Both the position numbers and the translations under genes were made by a program. DNA of 64,000 bases from Actinomycetes bacterium. Its GTDB lineage: Bacteria; Actinomycetota; Acidimicrobiia; Acidimicrobiales; Poriferisodalaceae. A model generated the notes under the pieces. The model saw only the letters and a list, made by a program, of their open reading frames with translations. It was not told the origin of the DNA and did not search any database. How positions within the stretch are numbered: the stretch's first letter is position 1; each line of letters begins with the position of its first letter. The stretch spans positions 1-64,000 of the forward strand of contig JAAETH010000390.1 in assembly GCA_024228575.1 (NCBI GenBank), read 5' to 3'. This document shows, piece after piece, positions 10,655-60,909 of this stretch.

Positions 10655-11743
10655 TCAGCTGTCATCGGCCCAGGGGTCGATGAGGATCTTGGCGTGGTCG
10701 TCCGGCTCGGCGAGCGCTTCGAAGGCCGCAGCCACCCCGCCGAGCCCGACTTTGGCGGTGATGAGACCGTCGATGGGGAGATCGCCCTCGGCGATGTGGC
10801 GCAGGGTCGCGGTGAACTCGTCCTGGGAGTGCCCGAACACGAAGCGAACATCGATCTCCTTGTTGATCGCATAGATCGGCTCGAAGTGGTCCTGCTCCAT
10901 GCACACACCGACCACCACGACGCGGGCACCCGCCTCGGCCCCCTCGAACACGCTGGCGAGCACGCCGGGGACACCGACGCACTCGAAGATGACCTGGGGT
11001 CGAAGCGACGGGCCGCTCTGCCAGATGGGACGCGGCGCGGCCTGGGTCGGATCGACCTGGGCCAGATCCTGAAAGCGCTCGTACGGAGAACTCACGGCGG
11101 GATCGACCGCAGCGTCCGCGCCCATGGCCTCGGCCAGAGCGCGCCGCTTCGGCGAGAAGTCGGCGGCTATCACCTGTTGGGCGCCGGCGAGCTTCAATGC
11201 ACCGATCACGGCCAGCCCGACGGGGCCGCAGCCCACCACCAGCACAGCGGCCCCTCGCGGCAGCTCTGCCCTGGCCACCGCGTGCACCCCTACCGCCATG
11301 GGTTCTGTGAGCGCGGCGTGCTCGGCCGAGAGGCCATTGGGGACCGGCAACAGCAGCCCCTCCATCAGCTTCATGTACTGGCCATAGCCGCCGGGGGCAT
11401 GGTTCGAAAAGCCGACGGGCTCGATGCCAGCGGCGCCGACCAGTGCCGGCTGGCTGCAAACCAGGCTACCCACCGGGATCTGGCGCTGTGTGCTGGGTCC
11501 GTAGTCCACCACTTCCGCGCAGAACTCGTGGCCGGGGACCAGGTCGAGGTCGGGATCAGCGGTGAAGAAGCCGCCGGCCCTGCGCATGAGGCCAAGGAGT
11601 CGGCGGCCGTGGTGGAGGGCGTGGATGTCCGAGCCGCAGATCCCGCAGACCCGGGTGCGGACGAGCACCTCTCCGGCCCCTGGCTCAGGGGTCGGGAAGT
11701 CATCCACGACGATCTTCCCTCTCCTGGCGATGGCAGCGCGCAT
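10655..11743 (-). CDS. Zinc-type medium-chain dehydrogenase/reductase
   Basis: 362 residues. The catalytic zinc ligands are visible as CGICGSD near residue 34 and GHEF near 72, with a glutamate downstream. The nucleotide-binding motif is VVGCGPVGLAVIGAL. The four-cysteine lobe that binds structural zinc in classical alcohol dehydrogenases is not evident. It probably oxidises an alcohol or diol with NAD(P). It is first in the operon with the ThDP enzyme and hydrolase. The palindrome at 11787-11803 lies 44 bp upstream, in promoter position. Together the operon suggests catabolism of a hydroxyl- or epoxide-bearing compound. Confidence 0.88.
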   Translation of the reverse strand: MRAAIARRGKIVVDDFPTPEPGAGEVLVRTRVCGICGSDIHALHHGRRLLGLMRRAGGFFTADPDLDLVPGHEFCAEVVDYGPSTQRQIPVGSLVCSQPALVGAAGIEPVGFSNHAPGGYGQYMKLMEGLLLPVPNGLSAEHAALTEPMAVGVHAVARAELPRGAAVLVVGCGPVGLAVIGALKLAGAQQVIAADFSPKRRALAEAMGADAAVDPAVSSPYERFQDLAQVDPTQAAPRPIWQSGPSLRPQVIFECVGVPGVLASVFEGAEAGARVVVVGVCMEQDHFEPIYAINKEIDVRFVFGHSQDEFTATLRHIAEGDLPIDGLITAKVGLGGVAAAFEALAEPDDHAKILIDPWADDS

Positions 11744-11786
11744 GAGTCCCCCTGATCAGCTGGAGCTCGTGGTGGGCTCCAAGTAA

Positions 11787-11803
11787 TTTCGGATACTATG
11801 AAA
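11787..11803. promoter_or_regulatory. Operator-like palindrome, copy 2
   Basis: TTTCGGATACTATGAAA differs from copy 1 (4624-4640) at one base and keeps both TTTC/GAAA arms. It lies 44 bp upstream of the dehydrogenase start on the minus strand, where a repressor would block the operon promoter. Confidence 0.55.
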
Positions 11804-42604: not shown

Positions 42605-44212
42605 TCAATAACCCCTCTCGGGAACCGTCGGAGAGGGTAGGGCGAGGTCTTCGGCCACCGCTTTGAACGCGTTGTACCCACAGGCCGCGTGGGCACCTCC
42701 GCCGGGGAACGACGACGGTCCGCAGAGATAGAGGCCCTCGACCTCTGTCCGGTAGTTCGAGGCCTCTGGGAAGGGACGGTTGGCTCCGAGCTGGTCGAGG
42801 GCGAACTCACCGTTGGAGAAGTCGCCCTCGCGCATGAGGTTCTTGCGCTCCATCTGATCCGGTGTGTAGAGCCGGTGGGCGATCACGTTGTCGGCGGTCA
42901 TGTTGGGGGCCGCCGCGGCCCAATTCGCGAGGAAGCGATCGTTGTAGGTGGCCCGGACCTCCTCCCACTCCTGGGCGCTCAGCGCGCTTGCCGGCGGGAA
43001 GAAGTACCAGCCGGTGGCGGCGTGACGTCCGGCTGGCGCCTGCGCCCGGTCCCAGAGGCTGTTGACCCAGGTTCCCGCAGCCGGCGCGGGTAGCCGCCCC
43101 ATGAAGGCGTCGCGGATGTAGCGAAGCGTGTCCTCCGGACCGTCGAACCCGACCATCGTGTAGAAACAACGGTCGATTTCGGGGTCCCAGCGCGCAGATG
43201 TGTAGGCAGGTGGGTCGTGAAGGCAGAACATGGGCGTGCCGAGCACGTGACTGGGACCGTAGCGGTAGTTCTCGGCCCGCCGGACCCACTGAGGACTGAG
43301 GTGATCGCGGCCAACCAGGTCCAGGAGCGTCTGACGCAGATCGGCGTTGGATGCCACGAGACGTTCGGCGCGGACCGTCCGGCCGCCGCGGACCTCCACC
43401 CCGACGGCGCGGCCGTCCTCCACCACCACCGACTCGACGGCCGTGTTCTCGATGAGGTCGACCCCTTCGCGGTAGCAGGCCTGGGTCATGGCTTTGGCCA
43501 GGGTGTGTGTGCCGCCGAGGCACAACTTCCAGTTGGCCAGGGTCCAGAAGATGAACGAGAGGAAGACGGCGCCGGTCCCGGCCTCGTCGATCGGGTATCC
43601 CCACTCGACCGTGGTGCGGTACAGCAGCGCTCGCATCTCGGGGGACTCGAACAGCTCGTCGATGACGTTCGTCGGGCTCTTCAGGGCGAAGTTGCCCGTG
43701 ATGCCCAGATCTCCGAACACCGTCTCGAGCATCAGCTCCTGTGTGCCGGGCTCCGAAACGCTCGGGATCGAGTAGAGGCCCGAGGCGAGCACCGGCTCGA
43801 GCATGGCAGCCCGCTGCTTGAGCTCGACGTACATGTCGGCGTCGCGCTTCGAGTAACGAGCGATGCTCGCGTGCGATCGGTCGATGAGGTCGGGGCGGTG
43901 CAGCACGATCGGTGGGCGCCCGTCGGCGAAGGCGATGCCGGCCTGCGCCTCTGGCATCACCGTCCGCAAGCCGAGATCTTCGAGACCGAAGTCGGTGATC
44001 ATCGGCATGATGTCGAAGAACTCCATGTACTGGGCATGGAGGTTGAACCGGTAGCCAGGGAGCAGGGGTTCCTCGGTGTTGATCCCGCCCCCCTCTTCGT
44101 GGCGGCGTTCGAACACCGCAGTGGAGAGGCCGGCCCGTTGCAGGTAGGCCGCGAGGCAGAGTCCGTTGTGGCCCGCTCCGATCACAATCGCGTCGTAGCT
44201 GTTCGCAGGCAT
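42605..44212 (-). CDS. Phytoene-desaturase-like FAD/NAD(P) oxidoreductase, copy 2
   Basis: 535 residues, paralogous to the gene at 40549. IVIGAGHNGLCLAAYLQRAG gives the Rossmann motif near 9-28, followed by RRHEEGGGINTEE. The C-terminus has GLYLCGPSSFPGGGAHAACGYNAF. The FAD sites look intact. As first gene of the operon (flavoprotein, SCP2, flavoprotein, SCP2-like), it sets the pattern of a doubled flavoprotein/lipid-carrier pair. Substrate unknown; the two paralogues may act one after the other. Confidence 0.88.
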   Translation of the reverse strand: MPANSYDAIVIGAGHNGLCLAAYLQRAGLSTAVFERRHEEGGGINTEEPLLPGYRFNLHAQYMEFFDIMPMITDFGLEDLGLRTVMPEAQAGIAFADGRPPIVLHRPDLIDRSHASIARYSKRDADMYVELKQRAAMLEPVLASGLYSIPSVSEPGTQELMLETVFGDLGITGNFALKSPTNVIDELFESPEMRALLYRTTVEWGYPIDEAGTGAVFLSFIFWTLANWKLCLGGTHTLAKAMTQACYREGVDLIENTAVESVVVEDGRAVGVEVRGGRTVRAERLVASNADLRQTLLDLVGRDHLSPQWVRRAENYRYGPSHVLGTPMFCLHDPPAYTSARWDPEIDRCFYTMVGFDGPEDTLRYIRDAFMGRLPAPAAGTWVNSLWDRAQAPAGRHAATGWYFFPPASALSAQEWEEVRATYNDRFLANWAAAAPNMTADNVIAHRLYTPDQMERKNLMREGDFSNGEFALDQLGANRPFPEASNYRTEVEGLYLCGPSSFPGGGAHAACGYNAFKAVAEDLALPSPTVPERGY

Positions 44213-44289
44213 GGCCGGAGACTAGTTGCAGCGACCGCGGTCGGCCGAATCGGGCCCTTCGATCGAAGCCAGTTCACCCTGCGAGCCTT

Positions 44290-44880
44290 CCCGACTTCGT
44301 CGACTTCCTCGCACCCATCTCGGGCGTCGGCGTTCACGCGACCCGGATTCCGTTCACGACGTTGGCGACGCCAGAGACGCTCGCCACCTTGGCGGGTGAC
44401 CTGGCCGGCGCAGCGCGACTCCTCGTACCGGGCCAACCACTCGACTCCATCAGCTATTCGTGCACGTCGGGGACGATCGCGATCGGTGAGGAGGTGGTGG
44501 CGAGCGAGATCCACAACGCCCGACCCGGGGTGCCGGTGGTTGCGCCCATCGGTGCTGCGTTCGATGGGTTGCGAGGGCTCGGTTGCGAGCGAATCTCGCT
44601 GCTCGTGCCCTATGTTCTTGAGACCACCGAGATGGTTGCGGCCCAGTTCGACGCGGCCGGGTTCACGCTCGACCGAATTGCGACCTTCGACTTGGAGGGT
44701 GATCCGGACATGAATCGAGTCGATCCGCGGCGAATCGTCGAGGCAGCGCTGGGTCGGCCCGTCGTGACGAGCAATCACGCGCTGGCGCTGCAGGCGGCGC
44801 GCGCCGCAGGCGTCGACGCGTCGTGTGCGGGGGCAGAGGCCGGCTGTTTCGGGATCTGTAGTCACTGCCCCTGGCCGCTG
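44290..44880 (+). pseudogene. Asp/Glu racemase/maleate isomerase-family pseudogene
   Basis: One frame reads PDFVDFLAPISGVGVHATRIP, SYSCTSGTIAIGEEVVASEI with the first catalytic cysteine, and later GRPVVTSNHALALQAARAAGV. The N-terminal strand (normally IGxIVPSSNT) is lost to a frameshift before 44290. The segment that should carry the second catalytic cysteine has been deleted between RRIVEAAL and GRPVV. It cannot be active. An intact family member lies at 49630-50436, but this remnant is not a close copy of it. Confidence 0.7.
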
Positions 44881-45861
44881 TCACCTCCTGATGAGCGTGA
44901 GGTCGACCACGATCTTGGATCTCGGGTCGGCGAAGCCGTGCACTGGGACGCCTGTGCTCGCGGGGCCCGGTGACCGGTAGTAGGCGTTTCGGACCGACAT
45001 GTTGTCGTGGAGTTCTTCGGCGGTGTTCCCGCCGATGTAGTGCGTGGTCGACTTGACGACGTCGGTGAACTCGTAGCCGTGTGTGGCCAGCACCTCGGCG
45101 AGACGCCGCATCAGCGCTTCTGTCTGCGCGACGAGGCTCTTGCCCTCGTCGGTCGAGCGGCCCTGGAGCCACAAGAAGGGCTCCGATCGACGAGACACGA
45201 CCGAGACACTATCGGTGATGCCGACGTCGGAGCGCACGACACCATCGGCCACGTCGACGCCGATCCACCGTGTTTCGGTCAGGTGAGGTCCGCCATCGAT
45301 CACCGCCCCGGGGTCGAGAGCCTCGACATGATCGGTGAGCGAATCAGAGGGAGACACGATGTGTTCGCTGAGCCGTGAGCGTCCTCCTGGCCCGTGCACC
45401 CACCGAAGCTCGGCCGCCGGCCCACCCCAGAACACATCGACCTCTAGGACGACACCGTCGTAGTAGAAGTGGGGCACGGCCAAAGGGACCAGGTCCACAG
45501 ATGATCCCAGCCGATCGGTGATGACATCGAGCATGGCAGCGATCGCATCGTCGGGGGAGTTGGCGTGATAGAGATACAGGCGTTGCACTCCGTGCCGAGA
45601 CAACCCAGCTCGCTCGAGTATCGCGTCGACGTGGTCGCAAACGACCGACGACTGGGCGGCCAGATCACCGTTGTGGATGGCGTTCGCCTCGGAGTCAAGC
45701 GCCAGTTGACCACAGGTCCAGGCGAGATCTCCGTCCCGCAGCAGGTAGCTGTAGGGGACGTCGATCGCCATCGACCAGAGGCCTGCAAACGAGACGTGGG
45801 ACCGTGTCACGTTGGGATTGTCGCGCTGGCGAGACGCTCGTGGCAACGGCGAATTGAGCAT
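44881..45861 (-). CDS. Tandem RidA/YjgF-domain protein
   Basis: 326 residues from ATG 45861; GTG 45810 is an alternative start closer to the conserved part. Two RidA-like domains are seen: the first (about 30-140) with GDLAWTCGQLALD and ILERAGLSRHGVQRLYLY; the second (about 190-320) with EPFLWLQGRS, LAEVLATHGYEFTDVVKSTTHYIGG and the C-terminal RSKIVVDLTLIRR containing the arginine typical of imine deaminases. RidA proteins hydrolyse reactive enamines/imines. A fused pair may be a detoxifier or a pathway enzyme. It reads toward the racemase pseudogene. Confidence 0.75.
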   Translation of the reverse strand: MLNSPLPRASRQRDNPNVTRSHVSFAGLWSMAIDVPYSYLLRDGDLAWTCGQLALDSEANAIHNGDLAAQSSVVCDHVDAILERAGLSRHGVQRLYLYHANSPDDAIAAMLDVITDRLGSSVDLVPLAVPHFYYDGVVLEVDVFWGGPAAELRWVHGPGGRSRLSEHIVSPSDSLTDHVEALDPGAVIDGGPHLTETRWIGVDVADGVVRSDVGITDSVSVVSRRSEPFLWLQGRSTDEGKSLVAQTEALMRRLAEVLATHGYEFTDVVKSTTHYIGGNTAEELHDNMSVRNAYYRSPGPASTGVPVHGFADPRSKIVVDLTLIRR

Positions 45862-46060
45862 GGCGTTGAGCCTGTGGGGTTCGGAGACCCTGCCGTGGCA
45901 GGTTCCGCACGTCCTGGTGTTCGTCGATGAGGCTCTCGCATCGCGCAGCGCAACCGGCATCATCGCGGACTGCCCTTCGACCCTGGCCTGGCGCCGGTCT
46001 GGGGCGTAGGCATGTCTGTGGGACCCAGGTCCCTGTGCCTGGGGACTCCACGGTGAGGTG

Positions 46061-49629: not shown

Positions 49630-50436
49630 CTACTCGGATTGGCCCCAGCCCATGTGGAAGAGCTGGCCGTACCCCTCGATCACGTCGTCGATGTCTGCCC
49701 GGCGTAGGCAGTCCCACATCATTGCCTGGTTGGAGCTCACCACAGGTTTGCCGGCTGCATCCTCGATCTCCTGCAGCACATCGAGCGTGCGGATGCCGCC
49801 ACAGCTGACAAAGATCGCGTCGGCGTCCTCGCGGTCGATGCTGAGCGCAAAGTCGCGGATGAACGACGGCTTGATGCGGCCCATCGCCTCGCAGTCTTCG
49901 ATGTTCAGACCCTGGATGTCGAGCACATCGAAGCCCTTGTCTCGAAGAAACGCGGCTTCCATCGTGTTGATCTCATCGAGGTAGGGAGTGGCGACAACGA
50001 TCTTGTGAGCATCCAATCGACGCAGAGCGTTGACCGCACCGGTGACCAACGTCGACGGTTTGGCCCATGGGGCGCCGCGCCGAATCTCGGCTCTGACCTC
50101 GTCCTCGCCGATGACAATCGATCCGGAGGTGCAGGCGTAACAAACGACAGCGGGTCGTGCCTGTGGCTGCAGGATCGATGCGGCCTCGGCCATGCCGTCG
50201 ATCTGGGCCGCCAGGGTCGCGACATTGCAGTCGTTGGGGCTGTTGAGCCGGGTGACGCTGGGACCCACACCCTCTGGCGAGAGACGGTAGATGTTCTCCT
50301 CCATGACGAGGTCCATCGAGATGATGATGAAACCGAGCAAGGCACGCCAATGGGTGCCGTTGTCGTAGGGCACCGTGCGGGGAGTGGATCTGACGACGGA
50401 TTCGGATGCGCCTTCTGGTGTTGCTGCTTGAGACAT
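49630..50436 (-). CDS. Asp/Glu racemase-superfamily enzyme (maleate isomerase/arylmalonate decarboxylase-like)
   Basis: 268 residues. The two catalytic cysteines are in VVCYACTSGSIVIG and DAIFVSCGGIRTLDVL, and the C-terminal PVVSSNQAMMWDCLRRA is a family block. Members isomerise maleate, decarboxylate malonates or racemise acidic amino acids through a two-cysteine mechanism. It is the last of four minus-strand genes with two M24 proteins and a 92-residue protein, beside a divergent corrinoid methyltransferase pair. A role in handling a dicarboxylate or amino acid released by those enzymes is inferred. Confidence 0.85.
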   Translation of the reverse strand: MSQAATPEGASESVVRSTPRTVPYDNGTHWRALLGFIIISMDLVMEENIYRLSPEGVGPSVTRLNSPNDCNVATLAAQIDGMAEAASILQPQARPAVVCYACTSGSIVIGEDEVRAEIRRGAPWAKPSTLVTGAVNALRRLDAHKIVVATPYLDEINTMEAAFLRDKGFDVLDIQGLNIEDCEAMGRIKPSFIRDFALSIDREDADAIFVSCGGIRTLDVLQEIEDAAGKPVVSSNQAMMWDCLRRADIDDVIEGYGQLFHMGWGQSE

Positions 50437-50476
50437 ACTCCTCGACCTCTCCTCGATTTCTTGTGTGTGCGGGGTG

Positions 50477-51403
50477 TCAGATGATGACCAGCGGCTCGAT
50501 CCAGGACGGCGGGAAAGCCGCTCCTACCGCACAACCGGTCATGTGCAACCGGTAGGCGTCCAACCCGGCGTCTGCGATGACCTTTTTCGCCACCTCGTGT
50601 GGGACCTTGGCCGACACTCCGGCCCGTATCTCACCCAGGCACAGCTGTCGCCCGATGGTCACGCAGTAGCGTCGATAGTGCGCTCCGAACTGGATGTGCA
50701 TGAAGTCGCCGGGTTCGAGCACACGATCGGTCGGCTCGCCGTGGGCGAAGGCCGAGCGTGGACCGGATAGGAAGTTCATCGGGCTGGCCGGAATGTCGCT
50801 GCCCGCGGAGAGGAGTGTGTGATGGATATCGGCCGAGACCTCGCGTTCCGATCTCCCGGCGGCCAGCGATGAACGACAGGTTTCCATGCCACGGTCCAGG
50901 ATCGCTCCGGCCTGGCGTACATATTCGATCTCCGCCGCGGACTTGACCAGCTTGATATCGCCGATCAGGCTCGTTGCGTCCATCACCAGATCGTCGCCGA
51001 GTACGTCGACCACTCGTTGGTAGTCGTGGGGATGCAGGTAGTAGAGCGGCACCTCGAGCCCGGTTCTCAGCCCCTTGAATCCGTGCGAGCGCACGATCTC
51101 CTCGAAGACCTCGACTGGGTCCTCCGGCTCGCGCCCACCCCAGCCCCGAACCTCATCGGCAAACGAATCGGCCTCGAGCATCGGCGTTTCCGGTCGCCGG
51201 CTCTGGATCACCAGTGGTCCTGGCTGGAGCGGGAAGAACAGGACCTGGAACTCCTGGTACCCCTTGGCGGTCGCTCCGATGAGGTAGTTGATGTGAACAG
51301 GGGAGACGACCAGCAATAGGTCGATTCCTGCGGCCTCCATCGCTTCGCGCACCTTGAGCTGACGTTGGGTGAACTCTTCTTGACTGAAGAACTGTTTCGA
51401 CAT
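50477..51403 (-). CDS. M24/creatinase-family protein, C-terminally short
   Basis: 308 residues. The N-terminal creatinase-type domain (about 1-150) has GIDLLLVVSPVHINYLIG. The pita-bread domain starts near VKSAAEIEYVRQAG and ends soon after GCAVGAAFPPSWIEP. Family members run about 70-90 residues further, so the end of the catalytic domain is missing. The positions that hold metal in aminopeptidases are not acidic here (FMHIQFGAHYRRY), as in creatinase and ectoine hydrolase, which cut C-N bonds without metal. It is 40 bp upstream of the racemase gene and 5 bp after the small gene. Confidence 0.75.
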   Translation of the reverse strand: MSKQFFSQEEFTQRQLKVREAMEAAGIDLLLVVSPVHINYLIGATAKGYQEFQVLFFPLQPGPLVIQSRRPETPMLEADSFADEVRGWGGREPEDPVEVFEEIVRSHGFKGLRTGLEVPLYYLHPHDYQRVVDVLGDDLVMDATSLIGDIKLVKSAAEIEYVRQAGAILDRGMETCRSSLAAGRSEREVSADIHHTLLSAGSDIPASPMNFLSGPRSAFAHGEPTDRVLEPGDFMHIQFGAHYRRYCVTIGRQLCLGEIRAGVSAKVPHEVAKKVIADAGLDAYRLHMTGCAVGAAFPPSWIEPLVII

Positions 51404-51408
51404 CGTGC

Positions 51409-51687
51409 CTACCCGAGAACCGAGAATGTGCTGTCTTGATCGATCTCACGCAACCGCGAGAACGTCGCGAGGTTGATCGTGTGGTCCACATCCTCGAGCT
51501 CGCAGTGCACGGGTCGGGCATCGTGGTCGGCCCCCGACTTGCAGAACTCGATCAGCTCGGCCATCACCTCGCCCGCGACCGGTGCATTCTCGAACTGGTT
51601 CCCACTGCTTGCACAGGCCATGTGGAAGCCCTCGGCACACGAACGGTCGAAGAGGGGTATCCAGTCTTCGGTGACCTTGTTACTCAT
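51409..51687 (-). CDS. Small protein of unknown function in the creatinase-like operon
   Basis: 92 residues. No family is recognised. It has three cysteines (in RSCAEG, MACASS and VHCELED, with another in EFCKSG) and several His/Asp residues, so metal binding is conceivable. The composition and codon use match its neighbours. It lies 5 bp before the truncated M24 gene and 78 bp after the other M24 gene, making it part of the operon. It could be an accessory subunit. Confidence 0.6.
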   Translation of the reverse strand: MSNKVTEDWIPLFDRSCAEGFHMACASSGNQFENAPVAGEVMAELIEFCKSGADHDARPVHCELEDVDHTINLATFSRLREIDQDSTFSVLG

Positions 51688-51765
51688 TTCTGGCGACTGT
51701 CCTCTTGTCCTTGGTGTGGGTCGAGTTGAACACGCTTGGCTGCTTTCCTCTACACAACCCGCTTG

Positions 51766-52959
51766 CTAGACGACCTGCAGGTCGCGCGGGTATTCGGTTG
51801 CGATCTCGATGCCGTCGTCGGTGACGATCACGGTGTCGCCGACTCGGGCGCCAAATACGTGCGGAACGGTCACCCCGCCGTCCACAGCGAACACCATGCC
51901 GGCTTGAAGCGGTGTGCGGTCGCCGTACTTCAGCTCTGGTAGTTCAAGCGACGAGTATCCAAGTGCTCGGCCCGTTCGGTACGACGGTGCGAACCCGTTC
52001 GATCGGTAGACATCGTCGGCCGCCTTGTGCACGTCCTCGGCTGCAACCCCGGGCCGCATCTCTCGAAACGCCGCCGCCTGAGCCTCGATCGCAGTGTTGT
52101 AGGTGCGAGCCGTCTCGTCATCAACCGACCCCACGAAGTACTGACGGTCGTACCCGATCTTGAGCTGCTTGAAATGACAGATCGAGCAGAAGCACATATA
52201 GATCGGGTCGCCGTGGGCGATCTCCTTCACCCTCGGATGCAGATGTGTGTAGCTGGTGAAGTGACCGGAATTGAGCGCCTGGAGGTTGTGGATCATGGGG
52301 CTCATCAAGGCATCGGGGTCTTCGGCCGCGATGATCTCCGCCGCTTTGCGCGTACCGGCCACCACACACGCGAGCGAGATCTCGTACTCGGGAACCCCCA
52401 CCGCCATGGCGTCGCGTCCGGCGATACCCATGGCGATAGCGACCTGGCCGGCCTGGCGGATCATGTTGAGCTCATCGGCTGTCTTGATGACCCGCATCGA
52501 GGCGATGATCGGTGTGGCATCGACCGGTTCGTTCAAGCCGTATTCGTGGCGCAGGAAGTCTGATATCACCGCAGGGATGTCGTTCCTCTCGATCGCGATG
52601 CGCTTGTTGTCCACGCCCCGCAGTGCGGTCCGAAGCGGGTCGCGCCACTCCTCGCCGACCCCATCGGAATAGAAGCCGAGATCGTCCACCCAGGTCATGG
52701 CTTCGGCCATGAGCGACTCGGATCCCGGCGTGATCAAGGTGACGGCGCCATCGCTTGCGATTGCCAGCAGTGTCGGGCGGCCGAACTCCAACCCGAGATC
52801 CCCCCAGTAGGCACTGAAGTAGTAGATCGAATCGACATTGGTGACGATGAGCACGTCGATGTCATCGTCGGCCAGGCGCCGCTGCAACTCGGCTGTGCGT
52901 CCCCGGAAGAGCGGCAACATCGCGGCCTCGGTGCTCATGGGGTGGGGAGTCACTGGCAT
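51766..52959 (-). CDS. M24/creatinase-family protein, full length
   Basis: 397 residues from ATG 52959 (ATG 52938 also possible). The creatinase-type N-domain (about 20-155) contains DDIDVLIVTNVDSIYYFSAYWG. The C-domain follows MRVIKTADELNMIRQAG. Where peptidases have metal-binding His and Glu, it reads GRALGYSSLELP, FAVDGGVTVP and ARVGDTVIVT, so the site is degenerate. That points to creatinase/ectoine-hydrolase-like C-N hydrolysis rather than proline peptidase activity. It is first in its operon and divergent from the methyltransferase at 53266, about 300 bp apart. Confidence 0.82.
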   Translation of the reverse strand: MPVTPHPMSTEAAMLPLFRGRTAELQRRLADDDIDVLIVTNVDSIYYFSAYWGDLGLEFGRPTLLAIASDGAVTLITPGSESLMAEAMTWVDDLGFYSDGVGEEWRDPLRTALRGVDNKRIAIERNDIPAVISDFLRHEYGLNEPVDATPIIASMRVIKTADELNMIRQAGQVAIAMGIAGRDAMAVGVPEYEISLACVVAGTRKAAEIIAAEDPDALMSPMIHNLQALNSGHFTSYTHLHPRVKEIAHGDPIYMCFCSICHFKQLKIGYDRQYFVGSVDDETARTYNTAIEAQAAAFREMRPGVAAEDVHKAADDVYRSNGFAPSYRTGRALGYSSLELPELKYGDRTPLQAGMVFAVDGGVTVPHVFGARVGDTVIVTDDGIEIATEYPRDLQVV

Positions 52960-53265
52960 CTGGTCGGCCTCCGGTTGTTTGTCGACGATCCTGGTCGTGC
53001 TGATGTTGAGCCGATTGGCAGGCGAGCGCTGCTTCAATTCGAGGCCGGAGCCTGGTCGAGGCAATCGACGAGATCGTCGCGTCCTCGGCGCCCGCAGACT
53101 AGTGGTTGGTCCCCTGAGATGCCGGAGAGAACGCTTTCCCCGGTGGTAGCGGCGGCTATCATCGGCGATCCGGGAATGAGTCGTTCGTGCGATCGCCCTG
53201 CAGCCCGATGTGTTTGTCGGCGCCCGGTGTCATACGACTCGTCGAGCTGGGGATCTGGAGGTGTC

Positions 53266-54288
53266 GTGACCCCTTCTGAGATGACATCAAGACAGAGGGT
53301 GATGACCGTTCTCGACGGTGGGGTGCCAGACCGCGTCCCCTTCTTCGACTGGGTCGACGCGGGCTTCCGAGACAAGCTGGCCGCACACCTGGGAAGGGAC
53401 ACTCTCGACAATCTCGAGTGTGTGAGGGTGCTGGGGATGGACGCCTTGTACTACGAGCGTCCCTATTCGATGACCCCGATCAGCGACGAGACCTCGGCCG
53501 ACGACACAGGCAGGGTCCACTACCTGGGTCACGGCCTGATCAAGACCCCCGAGGATCTCGCCGAAATGGTGTTCCCCGACCCGGCAACACCAGGCTATTT
53601 CGACGACGCCAAACGTTTCGTCGATAGCCACGGCGACGAGGACCTCGCTCTCTACGCGGGTCTTCGGCCTGGAATCCAGCCAACCATCCTTTCACTGGGA
53701 TGGAAGGGTTTCTCGCGTTCGGTCGTCAAGAAGACGGGCATGGTCGAAAGACTCTTCGCTCGTTATGTCGAGTGGTGCCAAGCCAATCTCGAAGGGCTAC
53801 AGGAACTCGGCTTCGACTTCCTCGTCCTCTACGACGATATGGCCTTCAAATCGGGGATGATGTTCGCCCCCGACGTGTACCGCGAGGTGTTCCTGCCGGG
53901 CTATCGCGAGCTGGTCGATGCCATCAAGATCCCGTGGGGATATCACAGCGATGGCGACCTCAACCCGGTACTCGACGACCTCTTGTCGTTGGGCATGAAC
54001 ATGCTCAATCCTGTCGAACCACCCTGTATGGACATCGACGAGGTCAAGCGCGTCCATGGCCACCGCGTTGCCCTCTGGGGCAACATCGACATGGTCCACA
54101 CGCTCTACGACAGCCCGCTCGAGGTAGTCGACGCGGAGGTCAAGCAGAGGATCGAGGAGATCGGAGTCGGCGGTGGTTATGTCTGTGCCAGTGCCAACAG
54201 CATCGCCGACTACCTCTCCGTCGAGAACGTGCTGTGTATGGCCGAGGCCGTCAAGAAGTACGGGAAATACCCACTGAACGGAAGCTGA
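53266..54288 (+). CDS. UroD-fold corrinoid methyltransferase (MtaA/MtbA superfamily)
   Basis: 340 residues from GTG 53266, with GGAGG just upstream. The UroD barrel is seen in RQRVMTVLDGGVPDRVPFFDW and FDFLVLYDDMAFKSGMMF. In MtaA/MtbA the catalytic zinc uses His-x-Cys plus a later Cys. Here the first site is His227-Ser-Asp229 and the later is Cys307 in YVCASANSI. The altered ligand set may indicate a different acceptor or substrate. It is followed 21 bp later by a corrinoid protein, making a two-gene methyl-transfer unit. No MttB-like or MtbB-like enzyme is present, so this protein may itself attack the methyl donor. Confidence 0.85.
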   Translation: MTPSEMTSRQRVMTVLDGGVPDRVPFFDWVDAGFRDKLAAHLGRDTLDNLECVRVLGMDALYYERPYSMTPISDETSADDTGRVHYLGHGLIKTPEDLAEMVFPDPATPGYFDDAKRFVDSHGDEDLALYAGLRPGIQPTILSLGWKGFSRSVVKKTGMVERLFARYVEWCQANLEGLQELGFDFLVLYDDMAFKSGMMFAPDVYREVFLPGYRELVDAIKIPWGYHSDGDLNPVLDDLLSLGMNMLNPVEPPCMDIDEVKRVHGHRVALWGNIDMVHTLYDSPLEVVDAEVKQRIEEIGVGGGYVCASANSIADYLSVENVLCMAEAVKKYGKYPLNGS

Positions 54289-54309
54289 CTCAGCGAGCGA
54301 GGTTCGACA

Positions 54310-54936
54310 ATGTCGGTAGAGGACATCTTCGATGCGGTGCTGGACTACGAAGACGAGGAGATAGCGGCTCTGGTGAGATCGGAGCTCGAGAACGGAACAC
54401 CCGTGGACACCATCCTCGACACGGGTCTCATCCAGGCCATGACACATATCGGCCAGGAGTTCAGCGAGGGCACGATCTTCGTTCCAGAGATGCTCATGGC
54501 TGCCGAGACCATGAAGGCCGGCCTCGATGTCCTTCGTCCCCTCCTCACCGATGGGTCCTCACAAGCCAGAGGCCTGGTTGTGATCGGAAGTGTCAAAGGC
54601 GACATCCACGACATCGGAAAGAACCTCTTCGGCATGATGCTGGAAGGAAGCGGGTTCGAGGTGGTCGATCTCGGAGTCAACGTGGGTGCCGACGATTTCC
54701 TCTCCGCCATCGACACCCACCGTGCAGACGTCGTGGGCCTCTCTGCCATGCTCACCACCACCATGACCAACATGGCGAGCACGGTCGGCTCTATCCGAGA
54801 AAGTGGCACCGGCGTGCACGTCATGGTGGGAGGCGCGCCGGTCACCCAGGAGTTCGCCAGCGACATCGGAGCCGACGGCTTCGGCAAGGACGGCCCAACA
54901 GGAGCCGCAACAGCAATGGCGCTACTCGGCCGCTAG
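54310..54936 (+). CDS. Corrinoid (cobalamin-binding) methyl-carrier protein
   Basis: 208 residues. Helical cap domain about 1-85 (SEGTIFVPEMLMAAETMKAGL) and a Rossmann domain with GDIHDIGKNL, where His100 is the lower cobalt ligand of the DxHxxG motif. SAMLTTTM and GGAPVT complete the B12 site. This is the MtbC/MtaC type of carrier used in anaerobic or facultative demethylation of methanol, methylamines and methoxy compounds. It pairs with the UroD-fold enzyme before it. No RamA-like reactivation protein is in the window. Confidence 0.9.
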   Translation: MSVEDIFDAVLDYEDEEIAALVRSELENGTPVDTILDTGLIQAMTHIGQEFSEGTIFVPEMLMAAETMKAGLDVLRPLLTDGSSQARGLVVIGSVKGDIHDIGKNLFGMMLEGSGFEVVDLGVNVGADDFLSAIDTHRADVVGLSAMLTTTMTNMASTVGSIRESGTGVHVMVGGAPVTQEFASDIGADGFGKDGPTGAATAMALLGR

Positions 54937-55761
54937 CACCATGACCTCCCACACATCGTGGCCCGACGGCGTTCTACCTGGTCAGGGGCGTGTATTGGGC
55001 CGGGTCGTACCATCTGCGTGCCAGTGGCGGAGGCGACTGGCGGTACCTGGGGGATACGGATTGACCGTTGGTCGTTGCGCCAAAGACTGGCGGTGAAGGA
55101 GCGCGCGGCCTTCCGCGCGCGAGTATCTGTGCTGAGACAGATCCTGACCTTGAAGCTGCCGAGAATTCGTAGGTGGTGCTGGCGAGGCCTCGGTGGAGGA
55201 TTTCGGGGTGTGGGTCTGGATGCGTCGGCTGTTTCTGGGAGCGTCGGGTTCGCGGAGTGGGTGGCGATGAAGGTCTCGGTGGGGCACGTGGGGTTCATGC
55301 GGCGTGGCGGTATTGGTTGATGAGTCCGCCGCAGATAGGGATGCGTGTGATCGGTCGGTCTGCATCGACCGGTTCAGCCATCTCGGTGTCGTCGGGGGCG
55401 CGTTGGTCGATGCCTTGATGCGGCCGTTCGTGTTGTAGTGCGCCACATACTCATCGAGGAGCAGTTGGAGTTGTCGACGGTTCCAGATCAGCGTGCGGTC
55501 GAGCAGTTCGTGGCCTGCTTTGCGCCGGATCGACCAAACGGCCGAGGCGGCCGTGGACGGGGCGTCTCGTGCGTGAGGTCTTGTGTGGGTAGGTCTAGCC
55601 GCGGGCGACAAGGCGCCGATGCCGACCGATCACCGTCTCGGGCTTGATGATCAACATCACCTGCGCGAGCCGCTTTCGGTCGAAGGCTCGAAACAGAACG
55701 GCGAGAACGGCACGATCCGCGGGTGTGAATCTCGGCCCACACAGGAGAGTCAGCACCGTGC
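54937..55761. other. IS-debris region
   Basis: No intact gene. The part 55310-55725 is transposase debris. The part 54937-55310 has open frames on both strands but none with recognisable similarity. Confidence 0.5.
55317..55725 (-). mobile_element. IS481-like transposase remnant
   Basis: Read on the minus strand: IIKPETVIGRHRRLVARG followed by a stop (start of the integrase region), then, in shifted frames, LIWNRRQLQLLLDEYVAHYN and QGIDQRAPDDTEMAEPV, ending in CGGLINQYRHAA and a stop near 55317. This order is that of the integrase core and C-terminus of IS481-type transposases. At least two frameshifts and a nonsense codon make it dead. No terminal repeats were identified. Confidence 0.65.
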
Positions 55762-55800
55762 TGCTACTGGGGTAGCAATCTGATTGCTACCCCAGTAGCA
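55762..55800. promoter_or_regulatory. Perfect 39-bp inverted repeat upstream of the toxin-antitoxin genes
   Basis: TGCTACTGGGGTAGCAATC (55762-55780) and its exact reverse complement (55782-55800) flank one base. Each arm is itself a partial palindrome (GCTAC-N4-GTAGC), giving four half-sites. It ends 7 bp before the antitoxin start, so it is the likely autoregulatory operator for the antitoxin/toxin complex. Confidence 0.8.
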
Positions 55801-55807
55801 TTTCTGC

Positions 55808-56020
55808 ATGAAGGTCAGTGTGAGCATCCCAGACGAAGACGTCGAGTTCCTCGACCATTACGCCGAGACTCACCAGGTCGCCTCCCGGTCCGCAGCACTT
55901 CACCGCGCCATCCGCTTGCTGCGCGCCTCCGAACTCAGCCAAGACTACGCCGCAGCGTTCACCGAATGGACAGACGACCCAGCCAACGACGCGTGGGACA
56001 ACGCCGTCGCCGACAGCTGA
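55808..56020 (+). CDS. Ribbon-helix-helix antitoxin (MazE-type)
   Basis: 70 residues. VSVSIPDEDVEFLDHYAETH, then ASRSAALHRAIRLLRASE is a ribbon-helix-helix DNA-binding fold. The acidic C-terminal tail (about 48-70, TEWTDDPANDAWD) would wrap the toxin. The stop overlaps the toxin start. It probably binds the inverted repeat immediately upstream and neutralises the MazF-type toxin. Confidence 0.88.
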   Translation: MKVSVSIPDEDVEFLDHYAETHQVASRSAALHRAIRLLRASELSQDYAAAFTEWTDDPANDAWDNAVADS

Positions 56021-56367
56021 TGCGTCGCGGCGAGATCCGACTCGTCAATCTCGATCCGGTGCTCGGCAACGAAGCCGCGCACACCCGACCCGGAGTGATC
56101 GTGAGCAATGACGGGGCGAACACCACCGCAGCACGCCTCGGGCGCGGCGTAGTCACCCTTGTCCCAGTCGCTTCCAATATCGATCGTGTCTATGCGTTCC
56201 AGGTCCTCCTACCAGCAACCGAGACCGGACTCGACGCCGACTCCAAAGCACAGGCTGAACAGGTTCGTTCCGTTGCGATCGAGCGCCTTGGCCCAGTCGT
56301 CGGCACCCTCGGATTTGAACTCATGGACCAACTTGACGACGCGCTCCGACTTCATCTCGACCTCTGA
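56020..56367 (+). CDS. mazF: MazF/PemK-family endoribonuclease toxin
   Basis: 115 residues from ATG 56020, overlapping the antitoxin stop. It opens MRRGEIRLVNLDPVLGNEA with the family Gly-Glu/Arg region, then RPGVIVSNDGANT and VTLVPVASN, and ends with VRSVAIERLGPVVGTLG, which holds the conserved Arg-Ser segment. Family members cleave mRNA at short sequences and slow growth. The frame and key blocks are intact, so the module may be functional even though its surroundings are decayed. Confidence 0.9.
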   Translation: MRRGEIRLVNLDPVLGNEAAHTRPGVIVSNDGANTTAARLGRGVVTLVPVASNIDRVYAFQVLLPATETGLDADSKAQAEQVRSVAIERLGPVVGTLGFELMDQLDDALRLHLDL

Positions 56368-59395: not shown

Positions 59396-59589
59396 AAACG
59401 ATCATGACCGAGCGCCCGCGATCGCTCTGTTGGCTTTCAGGTAGTCAGTCTCACGATGAACGAAGCTGACTGACCCGCTCGGTACGCCGGCCGCGCAACT
59501 GCGAAACCATTATACCCGTGCCTCGCGATCGAGAGTGGTGCTCGGAGTGGTTCGAGTGTCGTGACTGTCAGCACGGCGTCCGCGAAGAA

Positions 59590-59905
59590 CTCGCCATCGA
59601 TTGCCCCGCGCTACCAGGTGCGGGCCGCCAGGGCACCTCCGCGCACAGCCTTGATACCCGCGATCGCGGACCAGGCCCGAGCTCTTCGAGCCGGTCGCTG
59701 CGGTGCACGAACAGGTTGCAGGCGGCCTTGGTGGTCTGTGCGCCGGTCGGGTTCGCCGTGTATCCGCCGGTAGCCCCATGTCGGGTTCTCGTTGGCGAGA
59801 CGCACGATTGGGTGCTGAGAGTCGGTAGCGGTGGGTGATCTGCCGTGCCGCGCCCGGGGAGTCTGCGTCCGGTGTTGCACGATGCGCTTTCGGTGCCAGC
59901 GCAAC
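59590..59905 (-). mobile_element. IS481-like transposase N-terminal remnant
   Basis: Minus strand: ETLRWHRKRIVQHRTQTP, then PIVRLANENPTWGYRRIHGE, the conserved region before the integrase core of IS481/IS3-type transposases. Later parts continue in shifted frames. No intact catalytic triad. Confidence 0.6.
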
Positions 59906-60078
59906 GTCTCGGGAGTAGTGATCCAGCCGTGCCTCAGCGGGCGGGGACAGCGGCGCCGATTTCTCGGAGAAGGATCCGGTCGTCGTCGTTGACTTCAGCG
60001 CGGCCGACCTGGCGGTGAAGGGACCGTGCCTGGTCCGCACCCACACGTGAGTTTCCGAGCCCCACAGGGCCCAGGTGC

Positions 60079-60909
60079 CTACTCGGATGGGAGCGCTGAC
60101 GGTGGGGTGAAGTGGAGAGGTAGGCCGTGGGCCTTCCATATGTTTGGACCGTTCATGGCCTGGATGTGGAGGTGGGGTTCTGTCGAGTTGCCAGAGTTGC
60201 CACAGCGGGCGACGAGTTGTCCCTCGATGACCCAGTCGCCGGCCGCGACCTCACACGAACCTCGTTGTAGATGGGCGAGGAGGAGGTATCGATCCTCGGT
60301 ATTGATGATGAGGTGGTTGCCGAGAATCCCTCGAGCCCCGAGGAACGAGCGGGGAACGAATTGCTGGATGCTCCATAGAAGAAGGCCAAGGAGTGAGGCG
60401 TAGGCCCTGTGGTCGCGCAGAACATCGACGGCGGAGGTGACCTGGCCGGCCGCTGGTGCATGCAGGGGGGAACCGAACGCTGCAAAGCGATCCGGGGAGG
60501 GAAGTCCGACGAGGCGATTGTGTCGATGTGTCGATCGTGTGGCAGACAGCCGTTCGGCCGGCAGAAGGTCCATGGCGTAGGTCTGGGCGAGAAGGTGGGT
60601 TGTGTGGGGGCGCAGGCCGGGCAGCGGGCCTCGCACGACCGTCCAGCCGGGTCCCACGGGACTGGACGTGGTCAGCGGGTGGCCCTGATCTTGTCGAGGC
60701 CGTTGGCGCCAGCTCGCCCAACGACCGACGGACATGACGAAGATGAGCGATGCAGGTACGGCCAGGAGTGCGGGAAGAACGATGTGTGGGGTGATGATCG
60801 AAGCCAGGAGCAGGACCGGGATGGCAAATGGCTCCCACGTCCACCGCGATGGTGTCAGAAGGCCCGTCGCTCCGGAAATCTCGGGCCGTCGTTGCCGATC
60901 GAGTGTCAT
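60079..60909 (-). CDS. M23-family (LytM-like) peptidase with membrane anchor
   Basis: 276 residues from ATG 60909, the start just before the membrane segment (about 25-55). The C-terminal domain has SPLHAPAAGQVTSAVD, then GNHLIIN, LLLAHLQRG and the zinc/catalytic HxH motif in EPHLHIQ. The first histidine, in GNH, and the HLH pair are present, so activity is plausible. M23 enzymes cut peptidoglycan cross-links or act as regulators. A longer version upstream has no family similarity. No neighbours suggest a specific role. Confidence 0.78.
   Translation of the reverse strand: MTLDRQRRPEISGATGLLTPSRWTWEPFAIPVLLLASIITPHIVLPALLAVPASLIFVMSVGRWASWRQRPRQDQGHPLTTSSPVGPGWTVVRGPLPGLRPHTTHLLAQTYAMDLLPAERLSATRSTHRHNRLVGLPSPDRFAAFGSPLHAPAAGQVTSAVDVLRDHRAYASLLGLLLWSIQQFVPRSFLGARGILGNHLIINTEDRYLLLAHLQRGSCEVAAGDWVIEGQLVARCGNSGNSTEPHLHIQAMNGPNIWKAHGLPLHFTPPSALPSE

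Follow-up and report, generated by a model that had tools for sequence, protein, structure and literature searches.

Metal-less creatinase-like M24 proteins and an EutA-like enzyme beside a corrinoid methyl-transfer unit in an actinomycete genome

The locus and its corrinoid unit

We analyzed a locus of an Actinomycetes bacterium of the Poriferisodalaceae (GenBank assembly GCA_024228575.1) at which an operon coding for two creatinase-like proteins of the M24 family and an EutA-like two-cysteine enzyme stands divergent from a corrinoid methyl-transfer unit. The window, by which we mean the whole stretch of DNA that was analyzed, spans positions 1-64,000 of contig C390 (JAAETH010000390.1; 69,753 bp) of a metagenome-assembled genome (MAG), a 6.15 Mb draft in 960 contigs. 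The six reading frames discussed in a first-pass annotation, made by a model from the letters and a list of open reading frames (ORFs), are all present in the ORF list of the window. Domains were assigned by comparing Pfam and NCBIfam/TIGRFAM profile scores with their cut-offs. The features are as follows:

49630-50436, minus strand: EutA-like two-cysteine enzyme (Asp/Glu racemase superfamily, Amdase/EutA branch), intact; Amdase and TIGR02990 matches, C102/C212
50477-51403, minus strand: M24_1, metal-less M24 protein (DoeA/creatinase-like), 308 aa, damaged; alignments to the 384-aa relatives in loci L006, L007, L011, L012 and L013
51409-51687, minus strand: flavin adenine dinucleotide (FAD) oxidase remnant (the 92-residue ORF); tail identity to DAO-family proteins of L010-L013 and L016
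51766-52959, minus strand: M24_2, predicted metal-less creatinase-like hydrolase, intact; 86% identical to the L006 protein, profile match to 1CHM
52960-53232, no strand: intergenic region that separates the M24 operon from the divergent corrinoid unit; from ORF coordinates
53233-54288, plus strand: UroD-fold methyltransferase (MtaA/CmuA-like superfamily); Pfam URO-D and 4AY7 matches
54310-54936, plus strand: corrinoid carrier (MtgC/MtbC/MtaC-like); B12-binding, B12-binding_2 and MtgC_2 matches

The first-pass annotation was right in its central observation, that a corrinoid methyl-transfer unit adjoins creatinase-like enzymes whose metal ligands are gone. The adjacent genes of the corrinoid unit pair a UroD-type methyltransferase with a two-domain corrinoid carrier, and both score above the Pfam cut-offs (URO-D 72.8 bits, cut-off 23.9; B12-binding 94.8 bits and B12-binding_2 69.3 bits). 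The sole solved structure recovered with the UroD protein was the methylcobalamin:coenzyme M methyltransferase 4AY7 (E 1.2e-11), and the unit falls short of every equivalog cut-off (MtaA 64/400; MtgC_2 189.5/370; MtaC 111/420; MtbC 157/350, score/cut-off in bits). It shares a UroD-fold methyltransferase and a two-domain carrier with the known corrinoid systems (MtaABC, MtgBC and MttB; the UroD-family OdmB/MtvB/MtoB/CdmB; CmuA), and the genome likewise encodes a RACo corrinoid activase (PF14574, 274 bits, contig C539, beside an MttB gene) and nine MttB proteins; however, none of these systems was found described with a metal-free M24 protein and EutA. The window UroD is the only copy among 247 genomes of the class, while 296 genomes of the phylum yielded two weaker matches, at 42% and 34% identity, one of which lies in locus L045, and plasmids gave no match. 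Locus L076 (genome G297) has a creatinase gene and a UroD gene some 1.2 kb apart, but the two are on opposite strands and separated by a further gene; this is not counted as evidence. To the right of the corrinoid gene, translations judged by eye resemble pieces of transposases or integrases and a small pair of the toxin-antitoxin kind (54982-56367 and 59510-60139), which suggests the edge of a mobile region.

The M24 proteins, the EutA-like enzyme and a truncated oxidase

Both M24 proteins carry Creatinase_N and Peptidase_M24 domains, and alignment with prolidase upheld the claim that the metal ligands of both M24 proteins are replaced. The prolidase metal ligands D209/D220/H284/E313/E327 correspond to C256/G269/R331/D360/G374 in M24_2 and to Q/T/Y/E/I in the full-length relatives of M24_1, so that the five-ligand signature (D, D, H, E, E) of M24 metallopeptidases is absent from both. 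Comparison with relatives places the start of M24_2 at the ATG at 52959, not at the TTG at 53064; the protein is full length, and no second intact copy was found elsewhere in the genome. A profile of 11 M24_2 relatives recovered creatinase (1CHM) as its best match in the PDB (E 5.5e-40), with DoeA weaker (2.5e-16). The substrate residues Phe62 and Arg64 of creatinase align with an invariant FGRP motif of M24_2 (F59, R61), and its catalytic residues His232, Glu262 and Glu358 align with the invariant H239, D271 and D360, Glu being replaced by Asp twice. The relationship is nevertheless remote: the single M24_2 sequence scores 79.7 bits against 1CHM, versus 599 bits for a true creatinase, and lies below the NCBIfam cut-offs for DoeA_2 and EutD (70/52 bits, cut-offs 575/613). 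The AlphaFold model of M24_2 is poor (predicted local distance difference test score, pLDDT, 55; predicted template modeling score, pTM, 0.49), and no claim is built on it. On these alignments, M24_2 is a metal-free creatinase-like M24 homologue.

The true creatinase used in this comparison comes from locus L017 (1997-4636), where its gene and an M24_2-like one are oriented divergently, close to genes for an ABC transporter and a nitrilase-like protein; this is possibly a creatine utilization locus in a Hyphomicrobiales MAG.

The EutA-like protein is likewise full length (89% identical to its L006 counterpart). It matches Pfam Amdase (113.7 bits) and, below the cut-off of 318, TIGR02990 EutA (170 bits). 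C102 and C212 are invariant across eight aligned relatives, as expected of the two-cysteine enzymes of the Asp/Glu racemase superfamily to which the first-pass annotation had assigned it. A second EutA-like gene in the window (44182-44973, plus strand) matches TIGR02990 only over model positions 23-174, the region of the second catalytic cysteine having gone, apparently by an in-frame deletion. Nearby lie a RidA-like gene (44881-45963, minus strand) and a CrtO-like FAD gene (42605-44212, minus strand), a set that resembles locus L098.

Two genes of the operon are damaged. The 92-residue ORF, previously listed as a gene coding for an unknown protein, corresponds to the C-terminal end (~88 residues, 65-73% identity) of an FAD oxidase of 435 aa, whose N-terminal ~345 residues are deleted here; a gene of its own is ruled out, since it matches the oxidase tail only. 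The complete oxidase follows M24_2 in L010, L011, L012, L013 and L016 and is of the N-methyltryptophan/sarcosine oxidase type (Pfam DAO, 164 bits). No intact orthologue was found in the window's genome, only paralogs, of which two full-length ones (54% and 47% identical) each adjoin an MttB gene (L050, G000:C903; L051, G000:C308) and likely form two-step quaternary-amine demethylation units.

M24_1 (308 aa) scores 123 bits against DoeA_2 and 82 bits against EutD, below the respective cut-offs of 575 and 613. Relative to its 384-aa relatives, DNA and protein alignments reveal the loss of a 66-nt in-frame internal piece (22 residues) and of ~54 codons near the end, including a catalytic acid. 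Because neither deletion shifts the frame and what is left of the gene shows a low nonsynonymous divergence (dN ~0.09) against the synonymous one (dS 0.9), they would be either recent or assembly faults, the latter conceivable in a MAG of 960 contigs. They fall between short direct repeats (GAG; ATC-type). The same two explanations, recent decay or assembly fault, apply to the presence of several in-frame deletions in one window (50477-51403, 44182-44973).

The M24_2-EutA pair in other genomes and a second corrinoid-M24 cluster

Searches with the operon recovered 11 loci (L006-L016) from Acidimicrobiia-type and marine proteobacterial MAGs, the nearest being labelled Acidimicrobiaceae and Candidatus Microthrix. 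All proteins of the locus except the UroD and corrinoid proteins have close relatives there, mostly at 62-89% identity, a distribution from which we infer that the M24/EutA operon probably moved between phyla. Most of these loci have EutA directly or almost directly next to M24_2, and in 11/13 plasmid records (M24_2 at least 36% identical) the two lie within ~2 kb of each other. Altogether, the pair occurs in marine gammaproteobacteria, Acidimicrobiia, Roseovarius, and rhizobial and Paraburkholderia plasmids; in L019, Roseovarius and Aminobacter it stands without M24_1 or the FAD oxidase.

The neighbors of the pair differ by lineage, yet they are repeatedly predicted N-demethylation enzymes. 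These include the FAD oxidase in marine gammaproteobacteria, SoxBDAG with a GbcA-like Rieske protein in Roseovarius, SoxB/D in Aminobacter, SoxBDA(G) further along from the pair in Rhizobium and Mesorhizobium, MttB with a GcvT-domain dehydrogenase (dimethylglycine dehydrogenase-like) in L018, and MttB near an EutA-M24 pair in L096. Rhizobial versions carry an AtzE-type amidase in addition. Ectoine-like genes (DoeB, DoeB2-like, diaminopropionate ammonia-lyase and an Ehu-type transporter) occur near some relatives, as do Lrp, SSADH and aminotransferase genes. In this respect the demethylation pathway that had been proposed gains partial support from the creatinase/ectoine-hydrolase-like M24 proteins and from the wider family. 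The aerobic betaine demethylation pathway (GbcAB, DgcAB, SoxBDAG) offers a likeness in the Roseovarius relative, where M24_2-EutA joins SoxBDAG and the GbcA-like Rieske protein; it differs in having no M24 or EutA step, whereas the window has only an oxidase stump and the corrinoid unit.

Two side observations concern these genomes. A HyuA-like hydantoinase gene adjoins MttB and corrinoid genes in L078 (2716-8280) and L079, which belong to the genomes of L010 and L009, and related-looking HD-domain-like proteins occur near a marine M24_2/EutA cluster (L013:13601-14194) and near the second cluster described below (L059, ~11200-11800).

In the window's own genome, the independently assembled contig C128 codes for a DoeA-like M24 protein, a UroD protein, a corrinoid protein, an M24 protein and EutA within 7 kb, the UroD and corrinoid genes directly following an M24 gene. 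In a tree, the window and C128 UroD proteins fall into different clades with 100/100 support, which indicates that the association of UroD and corrinoid genes with M24 and EutA arose at least twice. Against 11 M24 matches, only three PF02607 corrinoid genes occur in this genome; two of the three abut M24 genes, and the third is grouped with the RACo activase and MttB. A random placement simulation gave such an adjacency with P ~3e-4 (~3/10,000 trials), under a crude model in which the clustering of genes is not considered. Locus L095 (5170-9138, G239:C78) holds a closely related cluster, orthologous to that of C128 (M24 72%, EutA 64-74%). Between its M24 and EutA genes, in place of UroD and corrinoid genes, a translation judged by eye points to a fused 5-oxoprolinase/N-methylhydantoinase-like gene, hinting at hydantoin or lactam chemistry.

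A tentative pathway, its rivals and its meaning

The explanation we tentatively prefer, at slightly less than an even chance, is that the locus serves to break down an N-methylated amidine resembling creatine or ectoine, the corrinoid unit acting as the demethylation module. The core of the gene family would be the metal-free creatinase-like M24_2 and the EutA-like two-cysteine enzyme. M24_2 would hydrolyze a C-N bond at an amidine- or guanidine-like carbon of a carboxylated substrate through its conserved His and two Asp residues, with the substrate carboxylate held by its conserved Arg; EutA, through its Cys pair, would adjust the stereochemistry of the intermediate or decarboxylate it. A separate module would strip the N-methyl groups; in relatives this role would fall to the FAD oxidase, to SoxBDAG together with a Rieske oxygenase, or to MttB. 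At the present locus, where the FAD oxidase is lost, the adjacent divergent UroD and corrinoid pair would be the candidate replacement, passing the methyl group to the corrinoid. Observed are the gene content, the replaced metal ligands, the retained creatinase residues, the M24_2-EutA pairing, the second UroD/corrinoid occurrence with M24 and EutA in this genome, and the RACo gene. The substrate class, the order of the steps, the replacement of the oxidase and the action of the UroD/corrinoid pair on the same compound are the conjectural parts; creatine derivatives, N-methylated ectoine-like compounds and amidine-ring amino-acid betaines such as hercynine are guesses at the substrate.

Several results weigh against this proposal. 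Neither UroD nor corrinoid genes lie beside the operon in any of the 11 closest relatives, and L095 has M24 and EutA without them. Hence the six genes do not form the conserved set that had been suggested, and what stands of the claimed corrinoid-M24 association is its double occurrence in this genome; the L095 arrangement also implies that the corrinoid module is optional. With the oxidase reduced to a remnant and M24_1 truncated, the pathway may be non-functional here, and a stepwise pathway using all six products, as first envisaged, is unlikely in this genome. No methyl-acceptor methyltransferase of the MtrH/MtgA or MtaA type was seen in the locus (a genome-wide search was not made), a further difference from the known corrinoid systems. 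M24_2 has no arginine at the position aligned with creatinase Arg335. The comparison with creatine catabolism through creatinase and sarcosine oxidase is accordingly mixed: the metal-free M24 fold, the shared Phe/Arg, His and two acids (Glu as Asp), and the sarcosine-oxidase-type enzymes close by in M24_2 relatives are likenesses, but M24_2 is remote (80 vs 599 bits) and not a creatinase, and the known creatine pathways lack an EutA partner or corrinoid genes. Lastly, the substrates of UroD-family enzymes also include aryl methyl ethers and haloalkanes (PMC13222342).

Because of this last breadth of substrates, the UroD/corrinoid pair could be an independent neighbor, such as an O-demethylase, a dehalogenase or another methyl donor system, that abuts the M24/EutA operon by chance. 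The absence of the pair from the 11 relatives is in keeping with this, as are the characterized aryl O-demethylases and haloalkane dehalogenases of the family (PMC13222342) and the nearest UroD relative (L045), whose neighbors include a corrinoid gene and an ABC transporter but no M24. We regard chance as rather unlikely given the second, phylogenetically distinct pair directly after an M24 gene in the M24/EutA cluster of the same genome and the placement simulation. Compatible with either view of the UroD pair, and about equally unlikely in our estimate, is a decaying relic of a horizontally acquired M24_2-FAD oxidase-M24_1-EutA cluster with no working pathway here. The oxidase reduced to 88 residues, the two deletions in M24_1, the lack of a second intact M24_2 or of an intact oxidase orthologue (only 47-54% paralogs) and the second EutA-like gene without its second cysteine region speak for decay. 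Yet M24_2 and EutA are full length, the retained parts bear the mark of purifying selection until recently (dN ~0.06-0.09, dS ~0.6-0.9), the pair persists elsewhere without M24_1 or the oxidase, and the deletions could be assembly faults.

An ectoine or 5-hydroxyectoine catabolic cluster (EutABCDE/DoeABCDX) is improbable and was rejected as the best reading for its missed equivalog cut-offs. EutA and DoeA-like M24 proteins are present, and DoeB, DoeB2-like, Lrp, SSADH and aminotransferase genes accompany some relatives. However, the scores of M24_1, M24_2 and EutA alike stay far short of the ectoine equivalog cut-offs, DoeB and EutB/EutC were not found in the window set, and M24_2 resembles creatinase more closely than it does DoeA; ectoine, moreover, has no N-methyl group, which would leave the demethylases of the relatives unexplained. 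The least credible of the alternatives, suggested by database labels like 'Xaa-Pro peptidase family protein', takes the M24 proteins for standard metallo-aminopeptidases or prolidases. It was discarded: the predicted loss of metal ligands in both contradicts it, and the neighbors are small-molecule catabolic genes.

Returning to the N-methylated amidine, we propose, more doubtfully still, that M24_2 and EutA constitute an undescribed, widely transferred core for the breakdown of N-methylated amidine- or guanidine-type osmolytes, exchanging its demethylation modules (FAD oxidase, Sox/Rieske, MttB) and here having twice independently taken up a UroD-family corrinoid methyltransferase as N-demethylase. 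In agreement with the first-pass annotation, literature searches on M24 with corrinoid, and on homarine with creatinase or operon, found no matching pathway or description of this gene set, within a coverage that excludes most subscription journals. If correct, the proposal would add a new route for the breakdown of methylated nitrogen osmolytes in marine and soil bacteria, widen the known range of UroD-family corrinoid enzymes to include the demethylation of amines in an actinobacterium, and provide a natural role for EutA, for which a function in ectoine operons has been suggested but was found nowhere demonstrated in the literature searched. The conserved M24_2-EutA pair with its interchangeable demethylation modules is the point worth following, and it can be tested in cultured strains such as Roseovarius pelagicus, Aminobacter sp. 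SR38, Rhizobium and Paraburkholderia.

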